12,217 nucleotides of DNA, from assembly GCA_017631725.1 (NCBI GenBank), contig JAGBSS010000218.1:1-12217 (forward strand). The letters run 5' to 3'. This DNA is from Clostridia bacterium (GTDB lineage Bacteria; Bacillota; Clostridia; Christensenellales; Borkfalkiaceae). Below the pieces are notes generated by a model. It ran no database searches, had not been told where the DNA came from, and saw only the letters and a program-made list of their open reading frames with translations. The translations under genes and the position numbers were made by a program. Below, piece by piece: positions 1,565 through 5,956 of this stretch. The first letter of the stretch is position 1, and each line of letters starts with the position of its first letter.

Positions 1565-1593
1565 TTGACAAGGCTTGTAATATTTAATATAAT
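1565..1593 (+). promoter_or_regulatory. consensus sigma-A promoter of the S10-spc operon
   Basis: A perfect -35 box TTGACA (1565-1570) is followed by a 17-base spacer and a perfect -10 box TATAAT (1588-1593). The predicted start of transcription is the G at about 1600. It is the only full-consensus promoter I see in the window and it points into rpsJ. No extended -10 TG motif is present. It probably drives all genes from rpsJ to secY and beyond. Confidence 0.88.
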
Positions 1594-1620
1594 ATTTAAG
1601 CTGTGTAATTTGGGTTGATG

Positions 1621-1662
1621 CGGAAAGTTACTTAAATTGCTTAATTGCAAAGATAATTTCCG
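1621..1662 (+). promoter_or_regulatory. first leader hairpin
   Basis: CGGAAA (1621-1626) pairs with TTTCCG (1657-1662). The stem continues as TTA (1628-1630) with TAA (1654-1656) past a bulged G1627. After an internal loop, TTGC (1637-1640) pairs with GCAA (1647-1650) around a TTAATT loop. There is no T-tract, so it is not a terminator. It could be the ligand-sensing domain of the leader, which is inference only. Confidence 0.5.
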
Positions 1663-1686
1663 TTGACAAGTGTGGGGGCTAGACCT

Positions 1687-1726
1687 CTGCGACTAACTTC
1701 ATAGAAGATAGTAAAGTCATTCGCAG
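1687..1726 (+). promoter_or_regulatory. candidate antiterminator hairpin in S10 leader
   Basis: CTGCGA (1687-1692) pairs perfectly with TCGCAG (1721-1726). Inside, CTA (1693-1695) pairs with TAG (1709-1711), and CTTC (1697-1700) pairs with GAAG (1704-1707) around an ATA loop, with one A-A mismatch between the two helices. A nine-base bulge (1712-1720) is left on the 3' side. Its 3' arm overlaps the 5' arm of the terminator, so the two folds exclude each other. It also competes with the small G-rich hairpin just upstream. Confidence 0.5.
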
Positions 1727-1765
1727 CGACTTATAAAAGTTTAAGTATCGGCGAATGATTTTTTT
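1713..1765 (+). terminator. intrinsic terminator within S10 leader
   Basis: TCATTCGC (1717-1724) pairs perfectly with GCGAATGA (1751-1758) and is followed by seven T residues (1759-1765). The stem extends inward with CG (1727-1728) to CG (1749-1750) and ACTTA (1729-1733) to TAAGT (1742-1746), leaving an eight-base loop. AAAG (1713-1716) can pair with the first T residues. On the opposite strand no T-tract follows the hairpin, so it acts in the + direction. Lying 81 bases before rpsJ and after the promoter, it would stop transcription early unless prevented. It is also the only good terminator between clpX and rpsJ. Confidence 0.75.
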
Positions 1766-1846
1766 ATTATCAAAAATATGACACACACGGCAAAGTGAAC
1801 ACTAAACCACAGCACACAAAAAAGTTAGGAAAAAAGGAGAAGAAAA

Positions 1847-2146
1847 ATGGCAAGTCAAAAAATCAGAATTAAACTTATGTCTTATGACGTAGAAATGCTC
1901 GACAGTGCGGCTTCTACTATAGTAGAAACCATGAAAAAGTCTGGCGCGAAAATTAGTGGTCCTGTTCCACTTCCAACGGAAAAGGAAATCGTAACTATAC
2001 TTCGTTCACCACACAAATATAAAGATTCACGTGAGCAATTCGAAATTAGAACTCATAAGAGACTTATCGATATTTATTCACCAAACGTTAAGTTGTTAGA
2101 CAGCATACACTTACCAGCAGGTGTAGATATCAAAATTAAATTGTAA
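1847..2146 (+). CDS. rpsJ: 30S ribosomal protein S10 (uS10)
   Basis: S10 sits in the head of the small subunit and, in well-studied bacteria, also serves as the NusE antitermination factor with NusB. The core is clear: [10 protein letters not shown] near the N-terminus, then [11 protein letters not shown], then [16 protein letters not shown], ending [11 protein letters not shown]. At 99 residues it is slightly short because the stretch between RLIDI and LPAGVD is 12 residues where Escherichia coli has 15. AGGAG at 1835-1839 lies 7 nt before the ATG. It is the first gene of the operon, directly after the structured leader, so its expression should report the leader's behaviour. Identity is certain. 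Confidence 0.98.
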
Positions 2147-2831: not shown

Positions 2832-3458
2832 ATGCCAAATGTTAAATTATTTGATATGAAAGCAAACGAAGTAGGCACTGTCAATTTGTCCGATGCGTTA
2901 TTTAATGCAGAATATAACGAGTCTGTAATTCACCAAGCAGTAGTTACAAGGCTTGCTAACGAAAGACAGGGCACAAAAAGCACATTAACCAGAAGCGAAG
3001 TTCGTGGCGGTGGTGCAAAACCTTGGAGACAAAAAGGAACAGGTAGAGCAAGACAAGGTTCTATTAGATCCCCACAATGGGTTAAAGGTGGCGTAGTATT
3101 TGCACCAAAATCTAGGGATTTCTCTAAAAAGATGAACCTTAAAGCAAAACAAGTTGCACTTTTCTCTGCACTTTCCCAAAAATTAAGAGATGACCAAATT
3201 ATTTTAATTGACGACATTAAAGTAGAAAATGCAAAAACAAAGGAAATGGCAGCATTCTTAAAAGCGTTCAAATTAGAAAAATCTGTTCTTATCGTAATGG
3301 ATAACGCAGATGAAGCAGTTTTAAGAGCAAGCGCAAACCTTGAAAAGGTATCTACTCTTCCAGTAAGCCAATTAAACACATACGACGTTGTTAAAAACGC
3401 AAACGTGGTTATTTCTAAAAAGGCAATTGAACAAATCGAGGAGGTCTATGGAGAATAA
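2832..3458 (+). CDS. rplD: 50S ribosomal protein L4 (uL4)
   Basis: L4 binds domain I of 23S rRNA, and its extended loop lines the exit tunnel. In 208 residues the loop is clear: LTRSEVRGGGAKPWRQKGTG (52-71) then RARQGSIRSPQWVKGGVVF (72-90). A C-terminal Rossmann-like half includes SVLIVMDNAD (151-160). AGGAG (2819-2823) overlaps the rplC stop and lies 8 nt before the ATG. The stop overlaps the rplW start by one base (TAATG), which favours coupled translation. In Escherichia coli L4 represses its own S10 operon through the leader, so it is an obvious but untested candidate ligand for the leader at 1600-1846. Confidence 0.98.
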   Translation: MPNVKLFDMKANEVGTVNLSDALFNAEYNESVIHQAVVTRLANERQGTKSTLTRSEVRGGGAKPWRQKGTGRARQGSIRSPQWVKGGVVFAPKSRDFSKKMNLKAKQVALFSALSQKLRDDQIILIDDIKVENAKTKEMAAFLKAFKLEKSVLIVMDNADEAVLRASANLEKVSTLPVSQLNTYDVVKNANVVISKKAIEQIEEVYGE

Positions 3459-5287: not shown

Positions 5288-5956
5288 ATGGGACAGAAAG
5301 TTAATCCGCACGGTTTAAGAGTCGGAATAATTAAAAACTGGGATACTCAATGGATTGCTGGCAAAAAAGATTTTGCCTTAAATCTTAAAGAAGACTACGA
5401 TATAAGGGTTGCTTTAAAGAATAAATACGCACAAGCAGCTATTTCCAAAATCGTTATCGAACGTGCAGCACAAAGAGTTATAATAACAATATTTACCGCA
5501 AGACCTGGTGTTTTAATTGGTAAACAAGGTAGCGAAATAGAAATTATTAAAAAGACTGTTGCTAAAATTGCAAAAGGCAAGTAAATTGCTATTAACATTT
5601 CAGAAGTTAAAAAGCCTGATGCAGATGCACAACTCGTAGCAGAAGGAATTGCAACGCAAATTGAAAAGCGTGTTTCTTTCAGAAGAGCAATGAAACAAGC
5701 AATCTCAAGGTCAATGAGAAGTGGAATTAAAGGTGTTAAGGTTACCGTTAGCGGTAGACTTGATGGTGCTGAAATAGCACGTAGCGAAAGCTATCATGAA
5801 GGTTCTATTCCTCTTCAAACCTTAAGAGCAGATATCGATTATGGTTTTGCAGAAGCGCACACCACCTTTGGTATTATTGGTATTAAATGCTGGATATACA
5901 AAGGCGAAGTTATTGGCGCTCCTAAGAAAAAACCCGTTGAAGGAGGCGAAGCTTAA
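5288..5956 (+). pseudogene. rpsC: 30S ribosomal protein S3 (uS3), reading frame interrupted by TAA at codon 99
   Basis: S3 lines the mRNA entry channel and is essential. The frame is fully S3-like from [20 protein letters not shown] to the end (222 codons). It includes the KH-domain GKQG loop (78-81), [33 protein letters not shown] and [20 protein letters not shown]. Codon 99 (5582-5584) is TAA, yet the same frame continues with [20 protein letters not shown], so nothing is shifted or lost. The stop sits just before the last KH strand, so the 98-residue product should not fold properly. The first ATG after it is at 5690 (codon 135) without a ribosome binding site. One base change from AAA, CAA or GAA would explain it. 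Sequencing error, recent mutation and readthrough are all possible. AGGAGG lies at 5275-5280, 7 nt before the ATG. Confidence 0.9.
5582..5584 (+). other. in-frame TAA inside rpsC
   Basis: The reading frame goes GGC AAG TAA ATT GCT with clear S3 homology on both sides. In the corresponding place Bacillus-type S3 proteins read GKK before the INI strand, so Lys AAA changed to TAA fits best. TAA is the true stop of 18 of the 23 genes whose ends are visible, including rpsC itself, so a changed genetic code is unlikely. Confidence 0.92.

Follow-up and report, generated by a model that had tools for sequence, protein, structure and literature searches.

The S10-spc operon of this clostridial genome, which belongs to an uncultured bacterium of the gut, is probably governed by ribosomal-protein-responsive attenuation combined with translational control, both exerted through a leader related to the RF03136 family. 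In the window (the whole stretch of 12,217 nt analysed), the leader stands between clpX (265-1497, preceded by the end of clpP) and the ribosomal-protein genes, which follow from 1847 in the order rpsJ, rplC, rplD, rplW, rplB, rpsS, rplV and onward. It is a structured RNA of about 230 nt, and its core pattern is present in all 30 same-genus loci fetched. Regulated attenuation, proposed in an earlier note on this DNA, is the best reading because a kept terminator lies between a strong promoter and rpsJ within a conserved structured leader. Conservation covers the leader as a whole and is not confined to the terminator, which that note had not recognised. Its further suggestion, that the lineage has its own switch, is partly wrong: the core is common to the known S10 r-leader family.

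The promoter, which the note had called perfect, is just that, being the sole 12/12 match among the 22 promoter sites listed; judging from its spacing, we infer that the transcript begins near 1600. The features are collected in Table 1.

Table 1. Leader features and neighbouring genes, in window coordinates
Feature	Position	Strand	Support or remark
Promoter, TTGACA 1565-1570, 17-nt spacer, TATAAT 1588-1593	1565..1593	+	12/12 consensus bases
P1 5' strand GCUGUGU, inferred transcript 5' end; partners: early CGCAGC 1722-1727 (terminator arm), late ACACGGC 1785-1791 or CACAGC 1808-1813	1600..1606	+	swap tests, strong outside f1
Single-stranded conserved GGGUUGA	1612..1618	+	alignment A1; 2/7 positions vary
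P2 (1620-1626 with 1657-1663), conserved internal loop GUUAC/AGAUAA, P3 with variable tip	1620..1663	+	P2 covariation
P4 hairpin (1672-1678 with 1684-1690); CTGCGA overlaps its 3' arm	1672..1690	+	covariation
PK 5' strand CUAACUU	1693..1699	+	swap tests
P6 5' strands, 1699-1703 and 1707-1715	1699..1715	+	swap tests
Terminator hairpin, invariant 5' arm, internal loop AGCG/AUCG; stem TCATTCGC 1717-1724 / GCGAATGA 1751-1758, inner ACTTA 1729-1733 / TAAGT 1742-1746	1717..1758	+	
U-run, seven T, predicted transcript end	1759..1765	+	
P6 3' strands, 1763-1771 and 1777-1781; complete only after read-through	1763..1781	+	swap tests
Conserved motif ACACACACGG	1781..1790	+	98% pairwise identity, 31 g1 leaders; also required parse anchor
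PK 3' strand AAGUUAG, ends 7 nt before GGAG	1822..1828	+	swap tests
Shine-Dalgarno GGAG of rpsJ	1836..1839	+	
rpsJ (S10), first gene 3' of leader	1847..2146	+	Pfam PF00338, E 3.5e-33
rplD (L4), operon-encoded candidate ligand	2832..3458	+	Pfam PF00573, E 7e-72

A covarying core and its long-range helices

Positions 1600-1775 fold at -49.1 kcal/mol, whereas 200 dinucleotide shuffles averaged -35.0 (sd 3.6; z -3.9). In 40 near relatives the sequence upstream of rpsJ aligns over its full length and shows the same order of elements: GCUGUGU or a variant, GGGUUGA, P2 with GUUAC/AGAUAA, P4 and CGACUAAC, followed by a hairpin with a U-run, GACACACACGG, GUUAG, the Shine-Dalgarno sequence and AUG. Alignment A1 holds 39 of these 40 leaders (L008 was omitted as a near copy of L007), and the core covariance model R1 was built from it.

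Covariation in A1 shows the core to fold into P2/P3 and P4. For P2, two P3 pairs and P4, 99.7% of the 624 cells are paired, and both sides have changed in 10 of the 16 pairs, the two P3 pairs counted being invariant. None of 500 shuffles reached any of the five measures used, and slid controls were 47-58% paired.

With R1, the own genome gave one real copy (E 5e-21), and further copies were rejected since the second match had only E 9. Across the order, the core was detected in 109 of 347 genomes at E<=0.01. The core hits fetched lie in loci with rpsJ; L188 and L196, whose rpsJ went unrecognised at parsing, and L192 precede this gene as well, and no different gene behind the leader, which could have named the ligand, was found among them.

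The comparison sets were assembled as follows. rpsJ was located in 53 of 61 genomes, the best 80 loci from named records were kept (the nearest named relatives being animal-gut Clostridia MAGs), and 60 further places were fetched after the order search, 20 of whose 110 rows were left out. A regular expression found all anchors in 118 of the 193 loci with a recognised rpsJ, giving 108 distinct leaders, 103 of them with a parsed P4. Because 75 loci stayed unparsed, including 18 fetched order loci, most of which have a visible core, the sets lean to anchor-keeping leaders. We divided the 108 leaders into g1 (31; 30 of the same genus plus the sister L044), f1 (32; the rest of the family) and 45 from other families. 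Resemblance as we judged it placed L044 in g1, L038-L041, L043 and L045-L048 in f1, and L051 and L090 in f6, while the remaining g1, f1 and other labels follow the genus and family marks of the source genomes.

A few loci depart from the common arrangement. In L080 (1352-1420) and L096, upstream of rpsJ, the ACACACGG/ACACACCCGG motif stands within the core directly after GUUAC/GUUGC and not behind it, as though the leader were permuted; a pattern search for this arrangement matched L080 only, and L096 was seen by eye. Also by eye, a second ACACACGG-type motif was noticed upstream of the rpsJ promoter, before the leader, in L051, L158 and L159.

Long-range helices were assessed by a partner-swap test, in which the duplex energy of native strand pairs is compared with that of pairs permuted among leaders. 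In other lineages, this test shows a pseudoknot (PK) beside the Shine-Dalgarno sequence in relatives of the window leader, which links the sequence following P4 with that ahead of the ribosome landing site. The native mean was reached in 0/1000 permutations overall, 0/1000 within families and 0/1000 in f1, and a control strand shifted by 20 nt gave 654/1000 overall, although it was low in both of its within-family forms (35/1000 and 12/1000). A second set of 25 loci (L051 and L090 being also in the first) gave 0/5000 when the last 40 nt were used (control 1890/5000) and again 0/5000 with the last 60 nt, where, however, the control was also low (27/5000). Native pairs include CCAACAAA/UUUGUUGG (L138), CUAACC/GGUUAG (L161), CCCCGUU/AACGGGG (L194) and CUAACUC/GAGUUAG (L158), and the 3' strands listed end 17-28 nt before AUG.

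The closing helix P1, formed by the 5' end and the strand before ACACACGG, scored 0/1000 in non-f1 families (control 228/1000), and in f1 it did no better than its control (52/1000 and 46). In f1 the partner of the 5' end lies past the ACACACGG motif instead (0/1000, control 149), an arrangement that scored 61 in g1 and 951 in the non-f1 families. P6, which encloses the terminator, scored 0/1000 in g1 (control 743) and likewise 0/1000 in f1 (control 185), and was unseen in the swap test of non-f1 families (748/1000). Inside g1 the tests detect no covariation for PK (111/1000) or P1 (711/1000) because the letters there are nearly invariant. Two local hairpins were tried and found unsupported, namely one in which the PK 5' strand pairs with the sequence leading up to the terminator (172/1000) and a 3' hairpin, P7, that loci such as L070 and L053 had suggested at the ACACACGG motif (979/1000 overall).

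The terminator hairpin and the 5' end of the transcript

A strong terminator before rpsJ had been claimed from the letters, and its stem, inner stem and seven T are all in place (Table 1), with a fold of -19.3 kcal/mol for 1707-1765; a terminator scanner restricted to loops of 3-8 nt did not list this hairpin. A U-run preceded by a hairpin of at least -4 kcal/mol in stability was found in 31/31 leaders of g1 and 31/32 of f1, 62 of the 63 family leaders, and is rarer further away (11/16 in f6, 2/11 in f28 and 8/13 in others). Among shuffles the corresponding fractions were 0.34, 0.34, 0.06, 0.17 and 0.32 for g1, f1, f6, f28 and others. The mean hairpin energy was -18.4 in g1 versus -3.1 for shuffles, and -8.3 versus -3.0 in f1. 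Because g1 and most of f1 have unrelated hairpin sequences, the feature turns over and yet is kept.

Within g1 all 31 leaders (the 30 same-genus ones and L044) share one and the same 16-nt 5' arm and the 3' arm is 97% identical, in contrast to a mean identity of 48% at the fourfold sites of rpsJ and 43-51% in the flanking linkers. Such selection on the letters, beyond pairing, suggests that they are recognised directly or have another strand to pair with. The hairpin pattern was found in 22 of 25 same-genus and in 0 of 16 other genomes, as a single copy except in G004, which has two. A looser pattern gave 11 matches in 8 genomes (four of them this hairpin) versus 4 for a backward control, and copies elsewhere were rejected.

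Two same-genus genomes stand apart. G004, a MAG marked 5% contaminated, carries two rpsJ and two leader hairpins on contigs C83 and C92, likely from mixed strains. In G011, marked 96% complete, neither rpsJ nor the core nor the hairpin was found.

In nascent g1 leaders ending before the 3' arm of the terminator, GCUGUG at the inferred 5' end is predicted to pair with CGCAGC in the 5' arm with a mean probability of 0.93-0.97, exceeding 0.5 in 31/31 leaders, predictions that are not independent because the letters are invariant. Once GGCG of the 3' arm has been transcribed, the probability is 0.75 (25/31), and in the full leader it is 0. Compared with shuffled middle segments, the complementarity of the 5' end had a median p of 0.03 in g1 (largest 0.12), and 0.010, 0.008 and 0.07 in the sister loci L040, L041 and L038, three picked after inspection; in some rows of this test (e.g., L015) the promoter GCTGT was taken as the 5' strand. 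When all 13 f1 leaders whose 5' end has GCUG were combined, including these three, Fisher p was 0.29 (2/13 with p<0.05); 15 such non-f1 leaders gave 0.14 (0/15 with p<0.05), and the within-family swap test fails (516/2000). An early pairing of the 5' end that would hold throughout the order is unsupported. We regard GCUGUG/CGCAGC as a better competitor than the hexamer pairing of the earlier note (discussed below) and, with moderate support, as a candidate antiterminator of this genus rather than an established one.

These mostly negative results outside g1 bear on a different arrangement, in which the ligand and NusA act on a polymerase paused at the terminator with no alternative helix, a mode for which the S10 leader of E. 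coli is a precedent (PMC10931766). It fits the nesting of the terminator in the late P1, P6 and PK, with which it is not mutually exclusive, but the complementarity beyond shuffles in g1, L040 and L041 speaks against it, and we hold it to be a serious though somewhat unlikely alternative.

In f28, a family with small genomes, a different picture was observed. In L161, L179, L181, L187, L191 and L193 the U-run follows UCACA (AAUGACA in L193) with no hairpin of its own. This strand and, further on, that of P1 are each able to pair with the transcript 5' end, an arrangement in which the closing helix would double as the stem of the terminator. When the 5' end was tested against the strand preceding the U-run, partner swapping gave a weak result (101/2000).

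Kinship with known S10 leaders

The Rfam search that the earlier note proposed as a check returned no match to RF03136 (S10-Clostridia leader), either for the whole window at E<=1 or for 1590-1850 at E<=10, so the gathering score of 35.1 bits was not attained. In more distant loci (L095, L091, L081, L076 and L092) RF03136 does score above gathering. L199 has 35.7 bits, and R1 matches the same RNA at E 2.2e-5; in L091, L076 and L199 the two models match at overlapping coordinates. Since it is joined to RF03136 only through the intermediates L199, L091 and L076, the window leader is a divergent relative of this family and not a member as Rfam defines it.

The likeness lies in the position upstream of rpsJ in Clostridia and in a two-hairpin core with similar conserved strands (GAUGAAgCG, gUUGC, UUCCGcGGA and CGaC). 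The difference is that RF03136 is a two-hairpin model of 81 positions (by its cmscan line, in which a pseudoknot would not show) and stops short of P1, P6, the terminator, the ACACACGG motif and the PK 3' strand. The leader is a much extended variant of the known S10 r-leader kind.

Eckert and Weinberg (2020; PMC7247131) refer to Yao (2007) on the Firmicutes S10 r-leader and mention numerous examples from Clostridia, without further discussion. The rpsJ motif RLC-47-1 of Peptostreptococcaceae, proposed in 2024 as a ribosomal leader (PMC11109978), is likewise a structured rpsJ 5' UTR in Clostridia, a likeness by description. In E. coli, according to PMC10931766, L4 acts through the S10 leader on both transcription and translation. 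That leader too is structured, precedes rpsJ and combines a terminator with control at two levels, and an intrinsic-terminator-like hairpin is found in the leader before rpsJ here as well; we would see in this a resemblance in mode of action rather than evidence of kinship. Our literature searches, which reached few subscription journals and took in PMC7247131, PMC11109978, PMC10931766, PMC2965389 and PMC10085705, found no mechanism or ligand described for the RF03136 family.

Mode of control

We suppose that a surplus of ribosomal protein probably shuts the operon down by early termination and by hiding the ribosome landing site. The leader RNA folds into P2/P3 and P4, and a pseudoknot would tie the strand that follows P4 to the one directly ahead of the Shine-Dalgarno sequence. 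The observed hairpin and U-run are placed between the two PK strands and would serve as the terminator. A surplus protein of the operon, for which L4 is the first suspect by analogy with E. coli, would bind the leader and favour termination near 1765, and in read-through transcripts the folded PK beside the Shine-Dalgarno sequence may hinder ribosome binding. In this genus, the 5' end GCUGUG is predicted, with moderate support, to compete for CGCAGC before the 3' arm is made.

A more elaborate version, of a kind not met in the literature searched, would be a two-stage sensor, in which the 5' end acts first as an antiterminator and, after read-through, rearranges into the closing helix as the PK forms beside the Shine-Dalgarno sequence, one protein-binding core setting both termination and initiation and the genus-invariant terminator hairpin being a second recognition site of the regulator. 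We put this forward as speculation and consider it unlikely as a whole.

It is quite improbable that control is purely translational, with the ligand stabilising the PK near the Shine-Dalgarno sequence and the hairpin with its U-run, lengthened by P6, serving a structural role and causing little termination. The PK is the best supported long-range element and adjoins the Shine-Dalgarno sequence, P6 builds the hairpin into a longer arm, and the hairpin with a U-run was not found in 9/11 leaders of f28 and 5/16 of f6. However, its retention in all but one of the family leaders despite sequence change fits selection for termination.

A small-molecule riboswitch, or a terminator under no control, in place of a ribosomal-protein leader is very unlikely. 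This reading could draw on the lack of a named ligand in the literature searched and on the failure to find rRNA mimicry, but the fetched core hits, L188 and L196 included, lie in rpsJ loci, Rfam names the related family a ribosomal-protein leader, and no riboswitch or T-box family matches the window, the Rfam matches listed all scoring well under gathering (Plasmid_RNAIII, SNORD15 and two miRNA families within the leader, FuFi-1 in another part of the window). Mimicry of 23S rRNA, an early idea, was not found: ACACACGG and GCGACTTA are absent from L202-L204, only CAGCGAGTTA occurs in L202, and R1 gave no convincing match to the complete 23S of two relatives, a portion of that from a third, E. 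coli 16S and the first part of its 23S (best E 0.086, the other rRNAs being matched elsewhere). In six g1 genomes searched, no 23S was found.

Hardly tenable is the switch of the earlier note, in which CTGCGA (1687-1692) would pair with TCGCAG (1721-1726) as an antiterminator and a ligand would shift the balance: the elements are present, GCGACT occurring at 1689-1694 and 1726-1731, and all six pairs of this real complementarity are kept in 28/31 g1 leaders, but the pairing loses one pair uncompensated in the other 3/31, has a predicted probability of 0.000 at five transcript lengths (a mean of at most about 0.006 over 31 leaders and six lengths), costs 10.7 kcal/mol when enforced (-15.8 vs -26.5) and must open the covarying P4, in whose 3' arm CTGCGA sits.

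Two observations were made further down the operon. The rplC start region GGAGGTGAACTTTATCTATGAATAAAGCAATC (2170-2201) is exact in 30/31 g1 loci and in 12/45 loci of other families; CUUUAU/AUAAAG, with CUUUAA/UUAAAG in L043, would place the AUG in a hairpin loop, and the region may possibly be a second control point. In rpsC (S3, 5288-5956) the single frame is interrupted by an in-frame TAA at 5582-5584 (KGK*IAI), probably an assembly or sequencing error of the MAG.

The many intermediates show that the Rfam model falls far short of the real spread of the S10 leader. A very large ribosomal-protein cluster begins with the S10 operon, and for its control in Clostridia no mechanism or ligand is described in the literature found. 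A covarying pseudoknot at the Shine-Dalgarno sequence, with a terminator between its strands, provides a testable mechanism for this control.
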